From: a virus
IMG/VR virus record: IMGVR_UViG_3300009151_000356
Location: 1-24,744 of that record
Direction: 5' to 3' (one strand)
DNA: 24,744 nucleotides
How positions within the stretch are numbered: the stretch's first letter is position 1; every line of letters starts with the position of its first letter. The notes below the pieces were generated by a model. It ran no database searches. It had not been told where the DNA came from and saw nothing but the letters and a program-made list of their open reading frames with translations. Below are positions 4,965 to 20,792 of this stretch, piece by piece. The translations under genes were made by a program, and so were the position numbers.

Positions 4965-5246
4965 ATGGATAAGAGAAAAAATAATGGTGGTCATAGTACA
5001 AAACCAATTCGAGATACTGATTTAAGATTAGTTGCTAAAACTGATTTGCAAGCAATACATGAAAGATTAGAACCATTTACTGAAGAAGCAATATCAAAGC
5101 ACGCACAAGCAATTAAAGAGGGAGAAAAATGGGCCATCGAATTGTTTTACAAATACAGATATGGTATGCCAAAGCAAGTCATAGATCAAAACAATACACA
5201 TACGATTAACGATTTCGACATAAAAGATATTGTGAAATTTGAGTGA
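4965..5246 (+). CDS. Terminase small subunit (putative)
   Basis: This short, basic N-terminal protein (KRKNNGGHSTKP) has a helical body with EAISKHAQAIKEGEKWAIEL and YRYGMPKQV. This resembles the DUF5681-like/short small-terminase proteins of Bacteroidota phages. It would bind the packaging site and regulate the large subunit. It overlaps the large terminase start by four bases (GTG at 5243), the usual TerS-TerL arrangement, which is the strongest support. An AT-rich stretch before it (TTAATTTG at 4950-4957) could be a weak -7 box, but no -33 TTTG is present. Confidence 0.65.
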   Translation: MDKRKNNGGHSTKPIRDTDLRLVAKTDLQAIHERLEPFTEEAISKHAQAIKEGEKWAIELFYKYRYGMPKQVIDQNNTHTINDFDIKDIVKFE

Positions 5247-6448
5247 TAAAATTAAATGATAAATATAAGCCATTATTTTATTCTGATTCAAGATACTATG
5301 TAATAACTGGTGGTCGTGGTTCTGGTAAATCGTATGCTTTAAACTCATTCCTTTTGCTTTTAACGTATGAAGTAGGTCATGTGATACTATTTACAAGATA
5401 CACACTTACATCGGCTCATGTGTCAATCATTCCAGAGTTCACGGACAAGATAGAAACGGTAGGATTGCAGGACCATTTCTATATTACAAAAGATGAGATT
5501 ATTAATACTCAAACTAATTCAAGGATAATATTTAAGGGAATTAAAACATCAAGTGGAACGCAAACGGCTAATCTAAAGTCATTGGCTGGAGTTACTACAT
5601 TTGTTCTTGATGAAGCCGAAGAATTAGTTGATGAAGATGTATTTGATAAGATTGATTTATCGGTTAGGCATAACTCAAAGCAAAATAGAGTTATTCTAAT
5701 TCTAAATCCTGTAACAAAAGAACATTTTATATACAAAAGATTTTTTGAGAATAAAGGAGTGGATGCTGGGTCTTCACTAATTAAAAAAGATACTACTTAC
5801 ATACACACAACCTATAAAGACAATCAAAAATATTTGTCTAATTCATTTATTTCTCAAATTGAAAGCCTACAAGAAAACAATCCTAAAAAATATCAGCATA
5901 CAATTTTAGGAGGATGGTTGGATAAGGCTGAAGGTGTTGTGTTTACCAATTGGAAGTTTGGTGAGTTTAATCCTAATCAATTACAAACATCTTATGGGAT
6001 GGACTTTGGATTTTCAATAGATCCAGATGCTTTAGCAGAAGTGGCCATTGACAAAGCAAGAAAGATTATTTACGTCAAAGAGATCATATATGAACGAGGA
6101 TTAAAAACACATATCCTTGCATCACTTATTAAAGAGAAATGCAACAATGGTTTAATCATTGCAGATTCAGCAGAACCAAGATTAATTGATGATTTAAAAT
6201 ATCAAGGCATAAACATACAACCAGTCAAGAAAGGGACTATTGAATCGGGAATAGTAAGAATGCAAGACTATCAAATTATTGTAGATCCACAATCACAAAA
6301 CATTGCCAAAGAATTTAATAACTACGTTTATTTAAATAAGGCATCTAAACTTTATCTTGATGCTTGGAATCATATAATAGATGCAATTAGATACAACATC
6401 ATATACCATTTAGATAATCCAAATCAAGGCAACTATCATATTTATTAA
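5243..6448 (+). CDS. terL: Terminase large subunit (packaging ATPase/nuclease)
   Basis: The 401-residue protein is a complete large terminase of the PBSX/Terminase_3-like type. The ATPase domain has Walker A GGRGSGKS (23-30), Walker B TTFVLDEAEE with Asp123-Glu124, and the coupling motif LILNP (152-156). The RNase H-like nuclease domain has three acidic positions: Asp254 in YGMDFGF, Asp308 in IIADSAEPR, and Asp380 (or Asp373) in DAWNHIIDAIRY. It powers DNA translocation into the prohead at the portal and cuts the concatemer. Translation starts at GTG 5243 overlapping the small subunit. Its TAA stop is the first three bases of the first late-promoter element. Confidence 0.95.
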   Translation: MIKLNDKYKPLFYSDSRYYVITGGRGSGKSYALNSFLLLLTYEVGHVILFTRYTLTSAHVSIIPEFTDKIETVGLQDHFYITKDEIINTQTNSRIIFKGIKTSSGTQTANLKSLAGVTTFVLDEAEELVDEDVFDKIDLSVRHNSKQNRVILILNPVTKEHFIYKRFFENKGVDAGSSLIKKDTTYIHTTYKDNQKYLSNSFISQIESLQENNPKKYQHTILGGWLDKAEGVVFTNWKFGEFNPNQLQTSYGMDFGFSIDPDALAEVAIDKARKIIYVKEIIYERGLKTHILASLIKEKCNNGLIIADSAEPRLIDDLKYQGINIQPVKKGTIESGIVRMQDYQIIVDPQSQNIAKEFNNYVYLNKASKLYLDAWNHIIDAIRYNIIYHLDNPNQGNYHIY

Positions 6449-8210: not shown

Positions 8211-9277
8211 TAATATACGCACGATCTCCATACCTTATAGAGATAAATGAAGCATCACAGGTAGGAAGTAAATTGGAAATATTCCTTTGGAATACCCCTA
8301 ACTCAATACCTGCAACTGCTACATATACTCTTTCTAAAAAGGTTGCATCTAATTCTCAAAGGTCCACAGTTTATAATATATCACCTTATATAAGAGAATA
8401 CATAGATAATATTGTGTCAAGTAATGGTACAGACAATCAATGGTGTAATATTTCCATAAAACGATACAAAGAAACATCAGTAGATTCATACACTTTAGTC
8501 GATACCAATACTTATGCAGCAGTTGATGGCTACACTAATTACAATGGTGGGTATAATCAAACTAATCCATTAAATAATTATTGTCTATTGGCTGATAATA
8601 GCAAAGAAATTCAATATAATTTAGGTAGTATTCCTTATGTAAATGTATTAATTAACAACGCTGTAGGCGATAAATTAGATGTTGAATACAAGGACACTAA
8701 TAATAACAATGTAATTATTACCTCTGTTTTTGGAACGGGAGTAAGTGCAGGTAAATACATGTATAAAGTACCATTAACCACATCAAGTGCTAACTATAAT
8801 AACGGCACAATTACAACTTTAAAATATTTTGTAGGTGGCACATTAACCTATTCATCTTTATTTAATGTAACTCCTATCTGCGAAAACAAATATACACCAG
8901 TTCAATGTTCATTTATTAATAGATTTGGTGGTTGGCAGTTTCTTACATTTTTTAAGGCTCAAACAAATCAATTAACGGTTTCAAGTACGATATATAACTT
9001 GTTACCAAGTGCATTTAACTATAATGCCTACAAAGGACAAACAAAATCATTTAACTTTAATGCAAGTCAAACCGTAACTTTAAACACAGGTTTTGTGCCA
9101 CAGAATTACTCTGATCTAATTCAAGATTTAATGTTAAGTGAAGTTGTATTATTAGATAACAAGCCTGTAACTCTAAAGACAAATCAAACCAATTTAAAGA
9201 CAACTATTCAAGACAAGAATATTAATTATACAATGGACTTTGAATATGCTTACAACTTATTAAATAATGTAATATGA
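8207..9277 (+). CDS. Tail-tip/baseplate-region structural protein
   Basis: The 356-residue protein is rich in Asn, Thr, Ser and Tyr with alternating beta-strand patterns, as expected of a virion surface or tail-tip protein. No enzymatic motif is visible. It starts in an ATGA overlap with the gp10-like gene and ends in an ATGA overlap with the large poly-Thr protein, so the three are translationally coupled and probably assembled together. I do not recognise a named family. A distal-tail or tail-tip role is inferred from position and composition. Confidence 0.55.
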   Translation: MIIYARSPYLIEINEASQVGSKLEIFLWNTPNSIPATATYTLSKKVASNSQRSTVYNISPYIREYIDNIVSSNGTDNQWCNISIKRYKETSVDSYTLVDTNTYAAVDGYTNYNGGYNQTNPLNNYCLLADNSKEIQYNLGSIPYVNVLINNAVGDKLDVEYKDTNNNNVIITSVFGTGVSAGKYMYKVPLTTSSANYNNGTITTLKYFVGGTLTYSSLFNVTPICENKYTPVQCSFINRFGGWQFLTFFKAQTNQLTVSSTIYNLLPSAFNYNAYKGQTKSFNFNASQTVTLNTGFVPQNYSDLIQDLMLSEVVLLDNKPVTLKTNQTNLKTTIQDKNINYTMDFEYAYNLLNNVI

Positions 9278-12200
9278 TTAATGTAAGCATTTTTATTTAT
9301 GGCGATGATGGCTTGGCAAAAAGACTTGAATTATTTGAGGATGAAAACATATCAATCAATAGTTCAATCCAAAACATTAATGATATATCAAAAGTCTTTA
9401 CCGATTTTAGTCAATCGTTTACGGTGCCTGCCACGAAGAACAACAATATAATATTTAAACATTGGTACGAAAATAGTTTAGATAGTGGATTTAATGCCAC
9501 CAAAAGAAAAGATGCTTATATTGAAATTGACACATTGCCATTCAGAAAAGGAAAGATTCAATTAGAAAAGGCAAGTTATAAAAAAGGTAATATTGATAAT
9601 TACACTTTGACTTTTTTTGGTTCCTTAATATCATTAAAAGATAAATTTAATAATAGGTTTTTAAGGGACTTTGATTTCTCTGCATATAATTTTACATATT
9701 CAGGTACAGTAGTTAAAAACAGAGTTACAAGTGGTTTAGCTAAAGATGTTAAATTTCCTTTAATAACTTCATATAATATATGGCAATATAATACAAATGG
9801 TACAAGTCAAAACAATTATGACATTCAAAAAAATGCTACTCCAATATCTTATTTAGATTTATTCCCAGCAATGAGAATAAGTAAAATACTTGATGCTATT
9901 CGTATACAACTTGGAATTACATTAAGTGGTTCATTTTTAAGTAATGAAAAGTTTACTAATGCTTTTCTTTGGTTAAAAAATACAGATACTTTTGCTCAAA
10001 AAGGATCAGATAATAAAATATTTTTTCAATCTAAATCAAGTACTACTGGTACATCAAGTATTTTTGATTTAACAACTAATTCTTTAAATTTTACGCAACC
10101 AATTTTGCCAGCTTATGTAAGTAAAAATTACATTGATATAGATTTTACAAGTGGAAGTGGTATTGCATTTAATTTTTCAGTATATAAAAATGGAGTCAAA
10201 TTAACTGAACAATCAGCCACTACATCACCATCTGGATTTCCGATTAGATTAGATATTTCTTTTGTTGATTCAGGCGCTTATACTTTTTTTATATCTTCAA
10301 CAACTGCAATAACATTTACATCTGTTTATACCTTTGAAATTAATAGTGGATCAGGTGCAAGCATTGATGTAGTTGCTACACAAAGTGTATCACAAACAAT
10401 AACAACAACTTTAAATATTGGCGATTATATGCCAGAACTTAAAGCAGAAGATTTCTTTAGTGGTTTACTAAAAATGTTTAATCTTACTTGTTATTCTTAC
10501 GATGGGATTACATATTACATTGAGCAATTAGAGGACTGGTATTTAGCAGGACAAACCTATGATATATCTAAATATTGCCAAACAGATGAAATAGATTTAG
10601 AGAGGGTCAAACCTTATAAAACTATTAATTTTAAATATCAAGAATCTGAAAATATTATAGCAACAAGATTTTTATCTCAATCTGATATACCTTATGGAAA
10701 TTTAAAATATCAAGTTGATAATGATGGAGAAGAATATTCAATAGAATTACCTTTTGAGAATTTACCATTTTTTAAATTTTCAAATACTAATCTTCAAGTA
10801 GGAGGAGTTATAAAAGCTGATTTAAAAGCATACATTCCAAAGCCAGTTATACTTTATGATTATGGTGTAATTCAAACTTTATCAGGTGGTCAGTATTTTC
10901 ATTTTTTTGATGGTACATCAAGTTCACCTGTTACAACTTATAATTTATTTGGTCAAGATACATTAGTATCGTCTGCCGTTAATACTATAAATTGGGGTGC
11001 AGAACAATCAAGTTTTACAGATAAAATTGAGCCAAACTCATTATTCCAAAATTACTATTCAGCATATTTAACAAATACATTTAATCAAAAAGCAAGGCTA
11101 ATGAAGATTAAAGCAATTTTACCAATATTTCTATTATCTAAACTTGCATTAAATGATAAGATAGTTATTAGGGATAAGAGATACATTATTAATTCTTATC
11201 AAACAGAATTAACCACGGGAGAAACAAGTTTTGAATTAATGTCAGATTTGAGAAATATTACTTTAGGAACTACGACAACAACTACAACTGTTGCACCTAC
11301 AAGTACGACAACAACAACAAGTACAACAACAACAAGTACGACAACTACAACTACAACTGCAACTCCAAGATTTACATATTATAGATGGGATGTAAGTACT
11401 TTTGATTGTTCTCAATCTAATCCAATTCCTTTTTGGTCATATACATCTTATGCAAATGGATTTAAGATTATAAATGGTGATGGAATTACAAGATATTTAA
11501 CTAGTGCAAGCCATAGTAATTTTACAAATCAAATTACAAGTATTGCAAATTCAAGTTGTGCAACAACGACTACAACCACAACTACATGCCCACCATATGG
11601 AACTTACTTATATGAGTATTGTGGAGGCGCACCTGATTATAATAAAATAGGTGTATTTGCTGATGGTTCTTGTGGTTCTTATGCTTCTGTCATTGCTTAC
11701 AATGATCCTGCTTGTGGTTACACAACAACTACTACCACTACAACTACTACATTAGCACCAAGATATACATTCTATCGTAATGATGTTAATACTGGAGATT
11801 GCTCAACTTACAATCCAATTCCTTTTTGGTCATATACAAATCATGCTTCAGGATTTTATTACTTAAATGGTGATGGCATTTTAAGATATTTGCAAAGAAC
11901 TACACATTCTAATTTTACTAATCAAATTAATAGTATTGCAGGTGGCACATGTACTCCAACTACTACGACAACCACAACTTGTCAACCTTATGGAACTTAT
12001 TTGTATGAATATTGCGATAATGTAAACCATAATAAGATTGGTGTTTTTGCAGATGGATCTTGTGGATCATATACATCAGTTATTGCTTATAACGATCCAG
12101 CTTGCGGATATGTAGCACCTACGACAACAACGACAACAACCAGAGCGCCTACAACTACCACTACTACAACTGCTGGTCCTAATTGTCAACAATATACTTT

Positions 12201-12375
12201 GAACAATAATGATCCTAATTATTCTGATTATTATGATTTCCAATCATGTAATGGTTCATGGAATTATGGTGTAGAATTACAAGCAAATGGAAATATAACT
12301 ATCTGTGCAAGAGTTGGGACGGTAACTGCTGGAGGTGCTATAAGTGTAAGTTTACCACAAGGTTCATGTACTTAA
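9274..12375 (+). CDS. Large tail protein with poly-Thr linkers and duplicated Cys-rich modules
   Basis: This 1033-residue protein has two halves. Residues 1 to ~660 are a structural tail domain: FTDFSQSFTVPATKNNNIIF near the start, beta-rich throughout, and a final KIKAILPIF/LNDKIVIRDKRYIIN/SYQTELTTGETSFELM portion. This looks like a baseplate-hub or tail-tip protein of Bacteroidota phages. Residues 666-697 are 28/32 Ser/Thr. Then come module A (698-763), T8, module B (772-816), T10-LAP, A' (829-895), T7, B' (903-948), T7-RAP-T7 and a last Cys-containing domain (968-1033). Each module carries paired Cys. All four Thr codons are mixed, so the protein, not the DNA, is what is repeated. The modules are likely exposed receptor-binding or decoration units on flexible, possibly glycosylated stalks. 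Two glycosyltransferase-like genes follow directly. Confidence 0.75.
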   Translation: MINVSIFIYGDDGLAKRLELFEDENISINSSIQNINDISKVFTDFSQSFTVPATKNNNIIFKHWYENSLDSGFNATKRKDAYIEIDTLPFRKGKIQLEKASYKKGNIDNYTLTFFGSLISLKDKFNNRFLRDFDFSAYNFTYSGTVVKNRVTSGLAKDVKFPLITSYNIWQYNTNGTSQNNYDIQKNATPISYLDLFPAMRISKILDAIRIQLGITLSGSFLSNEKFTNAFLWLKNTDTFAQKGSDNKIFFQSKSSTTGTSSIFDLTTNSLNFTQPILPAYVSKNYIDIDFTSGSGIAFNFSVYKNGVKLTEQSATTSPSGFPIRLDISFVDSGAYTFFISSTTAITFTSVYTFEINSGSGASIDVVATQSVSQTITTTLNIGDYMPELKAEDFFSGLLKMFNLTCYSYDGITYYIEQLEDWYLAGQTYDISKYCQTDEIDLERVKPYKTINFKYQESENIIATRFLSQSDIPYGNLKYQVDNDGEEYSIELPFENLPFFKFSNTNLQVGGVIKADLKAYIPKPVILYDYGVIQTLSGGQYFHFFDGTSSSPVTTYNLFGQDTLVSSAVNTINWGAEQSSFTDKIEPNSLFQNYYSAYLTNTFNQKARLMKIKAILPIFLLSKLALNDKIVIRDKRYIINSYQTELTTGETSFELMSDLRNITLGTTTTTTTVAPTSTTTTTSTTTTSTTTTTTTATPRFTYYRWDVSTFDCSQSNPIPFWSYTSYANGFKIINGDGITRYLTSASHSNFTNQITSIANSSCATTTTTTTTCPPYGTYLYEYCGGAPDYNKIGVFADGSCGSYASVIAYNDPACGYTTTTTTTTTTLAPRYTFYRNDVNTGDCSTYNPIPFWSYTNHASGFYYLNGDGILRYLQRTTHSNFTNQINSIAGGTCTPTTTTTTTCQPYGTYLYEYCDNVNHNKIGVFADGSCGSYTSVIAYNDPACGYVAPTTTTTTTRAPTTTTTTTAGPNCQQYTLNNNDPNYSDYYDFQSCNGSWNYGVELQANGNITICARVGTVTAGGAISVSLPQGSCT
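11269..11364 (+). repeat. Thr/Ser-rich linker 1 (mucin-like)
   Basis: This encodes residues 666-697 of the tail protein: runs of seven, five, four and seven Thr separated by Ser or VAP. Codons ACA, ACG and ACT are interspersed rather than a pure triplet repeat, which argues for selection on the amino acids. Confidence 0.9.
11365..12150 (+). repeat. Tandem duplication of a 131-residue A-linker-B-linker unit
   Basis: Copy 1 is 11365-11757 and copy 2 is 11758-12150, each 393 bases. Protein similarity is high (shared NPIPFWSYT, HSNFTNQI, YGTYLYEYC, KIGVFADGSCGSY, SVIAYNDPACGY). The DNA differs at many third positions, with a few identical patches such as the one encoding NPIPFWSYT. This is an old in-frame duplication kept by protein-level selection. 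Thr linkers (8, 10, 7 residues) separate the modules. Confidence 0.85.
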
Positions 12376-12376
12376 T

Positions 12377-13300
12377 ATGAGATACATATGTTGTCAACCT
12401 GCAAATGATTATTATTTATGGCAAATAGAAACTGTCATAAATAATTTCATGTCGCATGGTATTAACCCAAATCAAATAGATATAATATTAGGATATACTA
12501 ATGAAGATCTAACAAAATGGCGAATCTTGCAAGAGCATTATGCAACTATTAGGTTTTTCTTTTATAAGGATACAAGAGAAAATACAAGTTATATCCCTGC
12601 TATCTATTTTAATTTAATGAAGCAACATCTTGCATCTAATCCAGCGTTAAAAGATGAAGTTTTATTTTTGCATGATTCAGACATCGTCTTTACCGGTACT
12701 CCAGATTATTTACAATTTGAAAGAGATAAAGTTTGGTATTTAAGCAATACAAATAGTTACATAAACTATGATTATATCATGCAAAAAGGAGAAGATCTCT
12801 TGATTGATATGTGTAGGATTGTTGGTATTGATACTTTAATTCCAAAACTAATGAATGACCATAGTGGAGGGGCACAATATATTGTAAAAGGAACAGATTA
12901 TAATTTTTGGGATAAAGTTGAGAAAGATTCAATTAGTTTATACCAATATTTTATAAATAAAGAACCTTATTATGTTAAAAAGCATGAGCATGATTATCCG
13001 ATACAAAAATGGACTGCTGGTATGTGGTCATTGCTTTACAATGCGTGGTTATTTGGACATCAAACAAAGGTAGTTAAAGAATTAGATTTTGGATGGTCTA
13101 CAAGCGATATATCTGATTCGGTTAAATACAAAATTATCCATAATGCTGGAATACCTGATTCTGATAGTGGTATGTTTTATAAAGGAGAATACGTAAATAA
13201 ATTACCATATAACACCTATTTAGAATTAGATAAGAATAGAAGTAGTTACTATTATTATAACGAAGTGCAAAAAGCAGGATTAAACTCACCATTATTATGA
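12377..13300 (+). CDS. Glycosyltransferase, HPAT/SERGT-like (putative peptidyl O-glycosyltransferase)
   Basis: The 307-residue protein starts one base after the poly-Thr gene. It has a GT-A layout. The metal/nucleotide-sugar motif is D-S-D (residues 100-102) in VLFLHDSDIVFTG, after an N-terminal Rossmann-like half. Then GGAQYIVKGTDYNFWDK (164-180), WTAGMWSLLYNAWLFG (212-227), LDFGW and YKIIHNAG (251-258). This motif order recalls hydroxyproline O-arabinosyltransferases (CAZy GT95) and peptidyl-serine galactosyltransferases (GT96): DxD, G-G-x-x-x-I-x-K-x-D, a W/E-M-Y-like helix, then a terminal I-I-H-Y/N. No membrane anchor is present, so it acts in the cytoplasm. Its substrate is inferred to be Thr/Ser of the neighbouring tail protein; modification of a host or phage glycan is the alternative. 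Confidence 0.6.
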   Translation: MRYICCQPANDYYLWQIETVINNFMSHGINPNQIDIILGYTNEDLTKWRILQEHYATIRFFFYKDTRENTSYIPAIYFNLMKQHLASNPALKDEVLFLHDSDIVFTGTPDYLQFERDKVWYLSNTNSYINYDYIMQKGEDLLIDMCRIVGIDTLIPKLMNDHSGGAQYIVKGTDYNFWDKVEKDSISLYQYFINKEPYYVKKHEHDYPIQKWTAGMWSLLYNAWLFGHQTKVVKELDFGWSTSDISDSVKYKIIHNAGIPDSDSGMFYKGEYVNKLPYNTYLELDKNRSSYYYYNEVQKAGLNSPLL

Positions 13301-13920
13301 AAATATTAGTTGGATTATTTGGTATTCACTACAAAGAAGATTTAAACCATTGGATGGGGTGGAGGCCAACGGTAGATTATAGGAAATCTATTGAGAATAA
13401 TAAAGAATTTATATTTAATCATTTTGATTGCACATTTTTTGCATCAACTTATAATTCGCCAATACTTGAAAATTTAATTACTGATTATAATATTGAAAGA
13501 ATTGTAACTACTGATTTAGTAAATATTCCTAATGATTTAGATGCTAATTGGAGATCTCGAAATAATACATTTAAGAATTTATTAAAATTAATTTTAGATT
13601 CTGATTATCAGAAGTTTGATTACATTTTATTAACAAGGTATGATTTAATATTCATGCAAAACATCACAAATTTTACATTTGATTCTAATAGTTTTAATAT
13701 TTCTTCAAGGTCAAGATGTGGCGATGTATCTGATTTATGCGATGATAATTTTTATGTCATTCCATCATCGATGTTATTAGATTTTTACAATCAGATTAAA
13801 GATTTAGATGTTAATATGTGGGCGCATGATTGGTTTAAATATTTAAAACCAATTAACTATTTAATTGATGATTCATTCTATTCGCACGAAAATCCATTCT
13901 ATTATATCAATAGAAATTAA
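13297..13920 (+). CDS. Second glycosyltransferase-like protein
   Basis: This 207-residue protein couples by ATGA to the first transferase. It begins MKILVGLFGIHY like a nucleotide-binding strand. It carries FDYILLTRYDLIF (107-119), where R-Y-D-L occupies the place of the DxD motif in GT-A transferases of capsule/LPS and viral types. RSRCGDVSDLCDDNFYVIPS and MWAHDWFKYL follow. A short GT-A fold with Asp116 as metal ligand is the best reading, but the family is uncertain. With the first transferase it could build a disaccharide: one enzyme linking sugar to protein, the other extending it. No signal peptide is present. Its stop is two bases before the second late-promoter element. Confidence 0.5.
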   Translation: MKILVGLFGIHYKEDLNHWMGWRPTVDYRKSIENNKEFIFNHFDCTFFASTYNSPILENLITDYNIERIVTTDLVNIPNDLDANWRSRNNTFKNLLKLILDSDYQKFDYILLTRYDLIFMQNITNFTFDSNSFNISSRSRCGDVSDLCDDNFYVIPSSMLLDFYNQIKDLDVNMWAHDWFKYLKPINYLIDDSFYSHENPFYYINRN

Positions 13921-18667: not shown

Positions 18668-19018
18668 ATGATCGTTTTAAAATCTACAACAAGCAATCAA
18701 GAAGTATCATTTATACCTACAAGAGTAGGTGATGCTAATTATTTATTTATTAAGAATGAAACAACTAATGTTGAAACATCTTATAAGATAAATTGCAAAA
18801 AAAAGAGTTTTTATACTACATTTAAAATGGTTTTTGATTTAGAAGAAGGACATTTTTATTCTTTTAAAATCAAATATTATGGAGTAATTGATAATAAATT
18901 AGATTATCATTTAGTAAATAACATTAAAGTCTTTTGTACTAATCAAATTGTCGATAATTATTCGGTTAATTCAGGTACATATGTAAACAATAGCGATTCA
19001 ATAATATTCTATGAATAA
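18668..19018 (+). CDS. Structural-cluster hypothetical protein
   Basis: The 116-residue protein has a strand-rich pattern (IVLKSTTSNQEVSFIPTR, FDLEEGHFYSFKIKYY) and a C-terminal KVFCTNQIVDNYSVNSGTYV segment. I recall F..EGH-x-Y-S and I-F-C-T-N-Q-x-x-D-N-Y-S as recurring in Bacteroidota phages and in conjugative or prophage regions, always before or near the portal. The function is unknown; a small beta-sandwich virion protein is plausible. It is the first gene of the P4 transcript and overlaps the portal start by eight bases. Confidence 0.5.
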   Translation: MIVLKSTTSNQEVSFIPTRVGDANYLFIKNETTNVETSYKINCKKKSFYTTFKMVFDLEEGHFYSFKIKYYGVIDNKLDYHLVNNIKVFCTNQIVDNYSVNSGTYVNNSDSIIFYE

Positions 19019-20792
19019 GAAAGATCATTTAAATTCACATTTTATTCAGTTGGAGGCATACTCACAACCTAAAATAATTGAATCTAATCGAGATAAGTGG
19101 GTGGAATTTGGGGAAAATAACAACTTTTTTCAGTTTTTAATAGATAGATACAATGGATCTACGACTAATAATTCAGTAATTAATAACATTGTTAAGTTGA
19201 TTTATGGTCGTGGTTTAGATGCAACAGATTCAAGCAAAAAACCGAATGAATATGCACAAATGATAATGCTATTTAGAAAGGATGTTATTAAAAAAGGTAT
19301 TTCTGATTTAAAATTATTGGGCCAATATGCTTACCAATTAATTTATAACAAGCAAAAGACTCAAATTATTAGGGTTGAACATATACCAGTACAACTTTTA
19401 AGAGCAGAAAAATGCAATACTAAAGGTGAAGTTGAGGCTTATTACTATTGTGATAATTGGGAAGACACAAAGAATTATGTTCCTAAACGTATTCCAGCTT
19501 TTGGACATGGCGATAAGACATTAGAAATTCTTTATGTAGGTAATTATACAGTAGGCCAAAAATATTATTCTAATGTTGACTATATTGGTTGTATTCCTTA
19601 TGCTAAACTTGAGGAAGAAATAGCAGATTATTTAATTAACGATGTGCAAAATGGATTTAGTCCAACAAGCATAATTAATTTTAATAATGGAATCCCTGAT
19701 GAAGAAAAAAGAGAATTAATTTCAAGACAAGTAACAAAAACTCTAACCGGATCCAAAGGCAAAAAAGTAGTTGTTTCATTTAACAATGATGAAACGAAAA
19801 AAACTACAATGGATTCTATTCCTTTAAATGAAGCACCAAAGCATTATGAGTATTTATCAGAAGAATCAAGATCTAAAATATTATTAGGACATGGAGTTGT
19901 TAGTGGTTTACAATTTGGTATACCAAGTGCAAATGGATTTAGTTCAAATGCAGATGAGTTAAAAAATGCAATTACTTTATTTGATAATATGGTTATTCGA
20001 TATTTTCAAGATACATTTTTAGATGGATTGGACAAAATATTAGCTTATAACAAAATTAGTTTAAATCTATATTTTAAAACCTTACAACCTTTAGAATTTG
20101 TTGATTTAAATCCTAATATAAGTAAACAACAACTACAAGAAAAAACTGGTGTAGAATTATCTTCACATATTGATGAATTAAATGTTGAGGAATTTGGTGA
20201 AGACATTGATTTAAACGAATGGGAATTAATTGACAGTAGAATGGTTGATTTAGAACAAGAAGATCAATTAGATGCAGAATTAGAGGCATTAAATAACCCT
20301 AAAAAATCTTTAATGTCAAAGATATATGAATTTGTAAGTACTGGAACTGCAAGACCTAATATTGGTTCAGAGCAAGATGGTAAATTATACATGTCGAGGT
20401 ATCGGTACTCGGGTGAAACAACAGAAAAAAGTAGATTGTTTTGTAAAAAAATGACTGCTGCTAATAAGTTGTATCGTAAAGAAGATATAATGAGGATGAG
20501 TGAGAAACCTGTTAACGAAGGATTTGGACCTAAAGGTGCAGATACATACGACATATTCTTATATAAAGGAGGAGGAGCCTGCCATCATTTTTGGACAAGG
20601 GAAACCTATAAAAGATTTACTGATCCACGAAGAAAAGGAAGTGAGCAAATAACACCAGCACAAGCAAGAAAAGCAGGTGAGATATTGCCAAATCCATTTG
20701 ATAAAACAGATGGTAAAGGATATAAAAAAGATAGTCAATTAGTTTATACAAGACCAATTGATATGCCAAATAAAGGATTTTTACCAAAATAA
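19011..20792 (+). CDS. Portal protein with fused C-terminal Cys/His domain
   Basis: The 593-residue protein is the best portal candidate. It has an early WVEFGENNNFFQFLIDRYNGS, NNIVKLIYGRGL, a mid KHYEYLSEESRSKILLGHGV, and a GFSSNADELKNAITLFDNMV helical stem-like part, the layout of Bacteroidota phage portals. It would form the dodecameric head vertex and dock the terminase. Residues from ~455 add a separate domain: YMSRYRYSGETTEKSRLFCK, EDIMRM, YDIFLYKGGGACHHFWTRET. The F-C-K-K-M and A-C-H-H-F-W motifs recall C-terminal parts of MuF-type minor head proteins, suggesting a fusion. A cluster of acidic residues (390-430) links the two. It lies far from the terminase and downstream of the capsid, reversed from the usual order. 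Confidence 0.75.
   Translation: MNKKDHLNSHFIQLEAYSQPKIIESNRDKWVEFGENNNFFQFLIDRYNGSTTNNSVINNIVKLIYGRGLDATDSSKKPNEYAQMIMLFRKDVIKKGISDLKLLGQYAYQLIYNKQKTQIIRVEHIPVQLLRAEKCNTKGEVEAYYYCDNWEDTKNYVPKRIPAFGHGDKTLEILYVGNYTVGQKYYSNVDYIGCIPYAKLEEEIADYLINDVQNGFSPTSIINFNNGIPDEEKRELISRQVTKTLTGSKGKKVVVSFNNDETKKTTMDSIPLNEAPKHYEYLSEESRSKILLGHGVVSGLQFGIPSANGFSSNADELKNAITLFDNMVIRYFQDTFLDGLDKILAYNKISLNLYFKTLQPLEFVDLNPNISKQQLQEKTGVELSSHIDELNVEEFGEDIDLNEWELIDSRMVDLEQEDQLDAELEALNNPKKSLMSKIYEFVSTGTARPNIGSEQDGKLYMSRYRYSGETTEKSRLFCKKMTAANKLYRKEDIMRMSEKPVNEGFGPKGADTYDIFLYKGGGACHHFWTRETYKRFTDPRRKGSEQITPAQARKAGEILPNPFDKTDGKGYKKDSQLVYTRPIDMPNKGFLPK

Follow-up and report, generated by a model that had tools for sequence, protein, structure and literature searches.

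Why does a phage gene for a threonine-rich tail protein lie a single base ahead of a gene resembling those for sugar-transferring enzymes? The question is raised by a 24,744-nt stretch of viral DNA, IMG/VR record IMGVR_UViG_3300009151_000356 (the window; positions given without a locus number refer to the whole of it, and L-numbers denote the loci compared in the analysis). Three consecutive genes make up the module considered here:

9274..12375, + strand: tail-associated protein, 1033 aa, the proposed acceptor (open reading frame (ORF); phrog_38559, E = 4.9e-66; homologue in Nonlabens phage P12024S)
12377..13300, + strand: predicted GT-A glycosyltransferase (GT) of the phrog_4417 family, 307 aa, the proposed first-sugar enzyme for poly-Thr (phrog_4417 match, invariant residues, predicted model, Foldseek)
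13297..13920, + strand: second-slot gene, 207 aa, overlapping the GT gene by ATGA, possibly a second sugar transferase (ORF; slot contents in relatives)

A first-pass annotation of this DNA had proposed that the module O-glycosylates the phage's own virion. From the predicted fold of the enzyme and its distribution across phage genomes, we consider it very likely that the module is one for virion O-glycosylation of poly-Thr tracts. We re-derived the ORF positions, and the coordinates, the 1-base gap (T, 12376) and the ATGA overlap given by the annotation are all correct. The same operon is found in the closely related contigs L002, L003, L012, and L014, and the second gene differs in some relatives. 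None of the three genes matched a family in Pfam or NCBIfam. The GT is, however, a full-length member of phrog_4417, a phage protein family with no stated function, matching its profile over residues 1-300 of 307 with E = 1.8e-68.

Coupling of phrog_4417 genes to poly-Thr tracts

Relatives of the GT were found at 80 viral loci, and the ORF directly upstream of them usually contains poly-Thr runs. The 240 GT ORFs collected were grouped into 75 clusters at 85% identity, and runs of five or more Thr (T5) were counted. Such a run was found in the immediate upstream ORF for 62 of the 75 clusters, and elsewhere in the locus for 8 more; in one further cluster (L244-L246, L256), the GT gene adjoins a polymerase-like gene, and the poly-Thr ORFs lie elsewhere in the same record. 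The proteins encoded upstream of the GT fall into 27 groups without detectable similarity to one another, and at least 18 of these groups bear poly-Thr.

The GT family is common to Bacteroidota phages and many Bacillota phages and prophages. In the Bacillota phages, the GT gene directly follows a major tail or major capsid gene whose product carries a C-terminal poly-Thr tag, e.g. TTTTTTKPTTTTTTTQA, and many of them have one or two further virion genes, kilobases upstream, with a similar tag, among them the gene for an HK97-type major capsid protein. The tagged families are the major tail proteins TIGR01603 and TIGR02126 and the capsid proteins TIGR01554 and phrog_10/phrog_840. At Bacillota loci, 278 of the 292 T5 runs are C-terminal, no more than 25 residues from the end of the protein. 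Those at Bacteroidota-type loci mostly lie inside the protein, between modules, with 7 of 432 near the C-terminal end.

The presence of the tag and of the GT can be compared within single protein families. The tail family of the window was collected by its N-terminal part alone, and distinct proteins were counted: 17 have both tag and GT, 36 have neither, and none is discordant. Relatives without the GT end near aa 660 or are without long Thr runs. The Bacillaceae-type (TIGR01603-type) major tail protein was likewise collected by its untagged part. Among viral contigs, all 4 tagged proteins occur with the GT and all 5 untagged proteins without it; among 80 genomes and two others, 3 were tagged with the GT and 28 untagged without it. 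In total, the GT accompanies all 7 tagged and none of the 33 untagged proteins, and even among major tail proteins 80-92% identical to the query, tag and GT differ jointly.

A tree of 56 TIGR01603-type major tail proteins, with the loci found through the GT included, contains 21 with both traits, 33 with neither, none with the GT alone, and 2 with the tag but without the GT. One of these two has a GT gene broken by frameshifts, and for the other the match itself is in doubt. The best tree has 9 changes in each trait, of which well-supported branches force at least 5. All four independent pairs on supported branches agree, a number at which a sign test cannot reach 0.05. Fisher values for these comparisons take no account of relatedness and are not read as probabilities. 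At a Piscibacillus locus (L297, 5335-7002), an intact tag is accompanied by a GT in frameshifted pieces, perhaps a decaying module.

The reverse test began from the tracts. A scan for nine ACN codons yielded 86 phage loci with an ORF of at least 100 aa containing a run of eight Thr (T8). The GT is present at 12 of these loci, each time directly behind the tagged ORF and on the same strand, and at none of the 34 loci without such an ORF. The family is otherwise rare: with the index genomes counted in, it occurs in 1 of the 399 Bacillota and 2 of the 396 Bacteroidota genomes sampled. Thus, where the GT is present, poly-Thr is expected too, but the converse does not hold. The co-occurrence of poly-Thr proteins with these enzymes, which the annotation had put forward for a genomic survey, is very strong and is two-sided, being seen in the GT clusters, the tail families, and the T8 scan. 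At one GT-negative T8 locus (L411, 4240-7340), the next gene is GT2-like, and other GT families may serve poly-Thr tags.

The enzyme and its second-slot partners

What kind of enzyme is encoded beside the tracts? The motifs named in the annotation were all located: D100-S-D102, GGAQYIVKGTD at 164-174, W212...MW217, and IIHNAG at 253-258. Across 63 aligned relatives D100, D102, Q167, W212, M216, W217, H255, G258, and K269 are invariant. Two of the motifs map as follows:

12674..12682, + strand: DxD motif (D100-S-D102), both Asp invariant in 63 sequences
13139..13150, + strand: HNAG motif, with H255 and G258 invariant in the alignment of 63 sequences

The AlphaFold2 model of the GT has a pLDDT of 95.3 and a pTM of 0.92. 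A Foldseek search of the PDB returned GT-A enzymes (Skp1 galactosyltransferase, glycogenin, LARGE1, and GT8 proteins) with E of about 1e-6 and TM scores of about 0.5, and the best 50 matches are all glycosyltransferases. The nearest viral models are those of an uncultured phage protein (TM 0.94) and Orf49 of Lactobacillus phage LP65 (TM 0.74). With the fold of the predicted model and the conserved DxD motif both present, membership of the GT-A fold glycosyltransferase superfamily is well supported. The annotation had asked whether the closest folds would be solely transferases of surface polysaccharides. They are not: the best matches are to soluble GT-A enzymes, and among these glycogenin, Skp1 galactosyltransferase, and LARGE1 have proteins or glycoproteins as substrates, although WbbM, a polysaccharide GT, ranks second.

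The likeness to GT8 is one of fold, since the GT8 sequence profile of Pfam was unmatched in the 63 members. The phage enzymes share with glycogenin and other GT-A enzymes the fold and the DxD motif, and their H-x-x-G...K pattern recalls GT8; we propose by analogy that the His of HNAG may be the counterpart of the metal-binding His in GT8-type enzymes. They differ in that the TM score is about 0.5, identity is about 10%, and there is no membership at the sequence level. Searches of PDB sequences with the GT, by phmmer and by profile, gave no meaningful match.

The annotation had also likened the enzyme to the GT95/GT96 peptidyl transferases, an assignment that could not be established. One of the 63 members (the L222 relative) aligned collinearly with the Pfam HPAT family (GT95, PF23452) over residues 59-233 (175 aa) with E = 0.0037, but its score of 17.1 bits falls below the gathering cut-off of 23.9 bits, and the enzyme of the window itself did not match PF23452. 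No GT95 or GT96 structures are among the top PDB fold matches listed. A search for HPAT in 297 Bacteroidota genomes gave no match, and the control gave no signal either. The GT95 and GT96 enzymes of plants and algae resemble the proposed system in O-glycosylating hydroxyl residues of proteins in repetitive tracts. They differ in that the HPAT match is below threshold and hydroxyproline is not expected in phage proteins. The relation to GT95 is an unproven lead.

The slot directly behind the GT gene at Bacteroidota-type loci often holds a varying gene. In one group (32 loci) it encodes S-adenosylmethionine (SAM)-dependent methyltransferases, and at other loci GT2-like, GT32-type, or other sugar transferases, as judged by Pfam family matches; the type found in the window (P0003) occurs at 8 loci. 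The GT is fused to a methyltransferase in L029, L030, and L056, and to a GT2-like domain in L077 and L269, the domain names being taken from Pfam matches of unfused relatives and from reading of the sequence. These second-slot enzymes and fusions support the idea that a glycan is built and then decorated. For the second gene of the window, which the annotation had read as a transferase, the argument from the slot holds, since relatives place methyltransferases and GTs there, but the gene's own product gives a poor model (pLDDT 62.5) with weak fold matches (best E 0.012, to GT-A and nucleotide-sugar enzymes). A tblastn search of phages with this gene gave no match. Because the model is poor and the matches are weak, we leave it as a possible second transferase.

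Alternative readings, and the proposed mechanism and acceptor

The GT-A fold together with the two-sided co-occurrence strongly supports the core proposal of the annotation, i.e. virion O-glycosylation on poly-Thr. Several observations weigh against it. The co-occurrence in the tail family of the window may reflect a single clade and one evolutionary event; the other tests are independent of that. In the reverse test, 74 of the 86 T8 loci are without this GT, though many of these, as of the compared loci generally, are fragments. Three loci (L257, L258, and L077) carry tracts that are Thr-rich but interrupted, with no pure runs, and L269, from a Pedobacter chromosome, is the only cluster without any poly-Thr. 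L269 and L463 are both chromosomal GT fusions of Bacteroidota outside a visible prophage and without poly-Thr. The capsid and tail proteins of phage 9183 have no T5 run, despite the presence of a GT relative. Furthermore, a Foldseek TM score of about 0.5 defines a superfamily and not a reaction.

Some of these loci have features of their own. In Lactobacillus phage SAC12B-type loci (L257, L259, and L260), the protein encoded ahead of the GT has TTVKP/TTVAP repeats at its end instead of pure Thr runs, and these are a possible alternative acceptor. In Pedobacter frigoris (L269, 3144-7713), the GT gene is near those for a C39-peptidase-like ABC transporter and a small precursor-like product, possibly a glycosylated-peptide locus. 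In another Bacteroidota genome (L463, 6727-9039), a chromosomal GT is fused to a GT2-like domain, with no visible prophage.

Could the GT act instead on the host surface (lipopolysaccharide, capsule, or teichoic acid) or on phage DNA, with the poly-Thr serving as a mere flexible spacer? Phage GTs for O-antigen conversion and for DNA glucosylation are well known, WbbM is among the top fold matches, and the two chromosomal members lie outside visible phages. However, the GT gene lies within the operon of virion structural genes in a wide variety of phages, tag and GT switch jointly among closely related phages, and the poly-Thr stays constant while the neighbour that carries it varies between capsid, tail tube, and other tail proteins. 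We consider an action on host surface or DNA very unlikely. Slightly less likely still is that tracts and GT travel together as one mobile tail cassette with no substrate relation. A single acquisition could account for the association in the tail family of the window, but not readily for a GT beside poly-Thr in so many unrelated upstream families, for tags on capsid or tail proteins encoded kilobases from the GT within one phage, or for large phage contigs that hold both GT and tract far apart; nor does a cassette sit well with the joint difference of both traits among major tail proteins that share 80-92% identity with a single query.

The least likely of these alternatives, in our judgment, is that the enzyme transfers a group other than a sugar (phosphate, sugar-phosphate, or nucleotidyl) to Thr. 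Pfam gives weak matches to a nucleotidyltransferase domain and to Stealth_CR2 for a few of the members, and a GlcNAc-1-phosphotransferase is a weak PDB sequence match (E 0.95), whereas the best 50 fold matches are glycosyltransferases and the fusion and operon partners are sugar transferases of the GT2-like, GT32-type, and GT7-type kinds.

For virion O-glycosylation, we suggest the following mechanism. The poly-Thr tracts of the tail protein would be the sugar acceptor, and the soluble phrog_4417 GT would move a sugar from a nucleotide-sugar donor onto Thr hydroxyls in the host cytoplasm, before or during assembly and before release. The second-slot enzyme, perhaps a sugar transferase here and often a SAM-dependent methyltransferase in relatives, would then extend or decorate the glycan. 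The product would be a mucin-like, sugar-coated stretch in the distal part of the tail protein, between its small Cys-containing modules. The C-terminal poly-Thr tags of major capsid and major tail proteins elsewhere would be served by the same kind of enzyme, so that tail-tube and capsid C-termini, as well as distal tail modules, would bear dense glycans. Protection, stiff and extended linkers or spacing, and altered adsorption are all possible benefits.

More broadly, we think it probable that poly-Thr is a portable glycosylation tag in tailed phages of at least two bacterial phyla, repeatedly acquired by unrelated virion proteins (major capsid, tail tube, and other tail proteins), at their ends or in their linkers, and read by a single dedicated GT family, phrog_4417, with the glycan varied by a swappable second enzyme (GT or methyltransferase) and with a CCC-TAA +1 frameshift of the Sextaecvirus type giving a minority of longer-tagged tail-tube subunits. 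In Staphylococcus phage SA2 (L464, 5117-5930), TPWB06 (L467, 5164-5926), L468, and L470, the reading frame of the major tail protein closes at CCC-TAA with a Thr run and Pro. Past this point, the +1 frame of these loci continues with repeated T6-T8 tracts. From the sequence, the CCC-TAA of these loci is likely to be a site of programmed +1 frameshifting to a long-tagged minority subunit.

The tail protein of the window consists of a conserved N-terminal part (aa 1-660, phrog_38559) followed by an extension of poly-Thr and Cys modules. It is 28.6% identical over 659 residues to a protein of Nonlabens phage P12024S, and because of this resemblance, the host of the phage is likely to be one of the Bacteroidota. 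A profile of the N-terminal part gave no match in the PDB. In the extension, small Cys-containing modules in the order A-B-A'-B'-C are separated by linkers, and all five Thr-rich linkers that the annotation had described are present, along with a duplicated unit:

11269..11364, + strand: linker 1, Thr/Ser, 28 of 32 residues Ser/Thr (aa 666-697)
11563..11586, + strand: linker 2, T8 at aa 764
11722..11751, + strand: linker 3, T10 at aa 817
11959..11979, + strand: linker 4, T7 at aa 896
12121..12171, + strand: linker 5, T7-RAP-T7 (aa 950-966)
11329..12014, + strand: duplicated unit, two copies of 293 bp (at 11329 and at 11722; period 393 bp) with 72% identity

Judging from the 293-bp copies, the A-B pair is duplicated, which gives the A-B-A'-B' order. 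The Thr runs are not due to chance: given the Thr content of the protein, about 0.001 runs of T7 or more would be expected, and there are 7. Nor did they arise by simple DNA slippage as a microsatellite, an origin ruled out by the mixing of Thr codons within the runs (ACA 26, ACT 20, ACG 7, and ACC 5), where 11 of 50 adjacent codons are identical against 34% expected under independence. With the codons scrambled, it is the amino acid sequence that has been conserved and not a DNA repeat. A split form of the tail protein is seen in L086 (= L026; 6723-11286) and L093 (= L022), where a shorter tagged tail protein is followed by a separate gene of 811 or 978 aa and then by the GT. Elsewhere, the window encodes a terminase (5243-6448), a portal (19011-20792), and tail genes.

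Precedents and significance

Is there a precedent for such a system? In the mycobacteriophages Che8, Corndog, and Myrna, phage-encoded GTs glycosylate the phages' own capsid and tail tube proteins (Freeman et al. 2023, as cited in PMC12363180 and PMC11256854). The likeness is that phage-encoded GTs are linked to the phage's own virion proteins, in the present case as judged solely from genomic linkage and co-occurrence. The GT genes of Che8 form a cluster of three (gp108-110), and from its sequence gp108 seems to consist of a GT2 part and, after it, a methyltransferase-like part. Comparison of gp108-110 with phrog_4417 by hhalign gave probabilities of about 1% or less, i.e. no detectable relation, and no poly-Thr tag was found in the Che8 capsid and tail proteins checked. 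Che8 thus differs in its unrelated GTs, in virion proteins without poly-Thr, and in GT genes that are distant from the structural genes.

Bacterial Ser/Thr-rich proteins such as the SRRP adhesins are glycosylated by dedicated, linked GTs. These systems share with the proposed one a low-complexity Ser/Thr acceptor, dedicated linked GTs, and sequential sugar addition; they differ in acting on secreted host proteins and in using different enzyme families. We found no account in the open-access literature of poly-Thr phage proteins linked to glycosyltransferases, though a subscription paper could exist. The annotation's remark that no phage system of this form had been described holds to that extent, with the qualification that virion glycosylation in mycobacteriophages is a functional precedent.

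The evidence points to a widespread and apparently undescribed route by which phage particles are coated with sugar. The analysis assigns a proposed function to the unnamed phage family phrog_4417 and to the poly-Thr tracts of capsids and tails, and would make sugar-coated phages predictable from sequence. Since the module is present in cultured phages (Enterococcus faecalis phiFL1A, Lactococcus lactis CHPC836, and Chryseobacterium MA9V-3), the prediction is directly testable by mass spectrometry. If it is true, the pairing would offer a simple GT and acceptor for studies of protein O-glycosylation, and virion glycosylation, known from the mycobacteriophages, would be extended to phages of two further phyla, apparently by a separate route.

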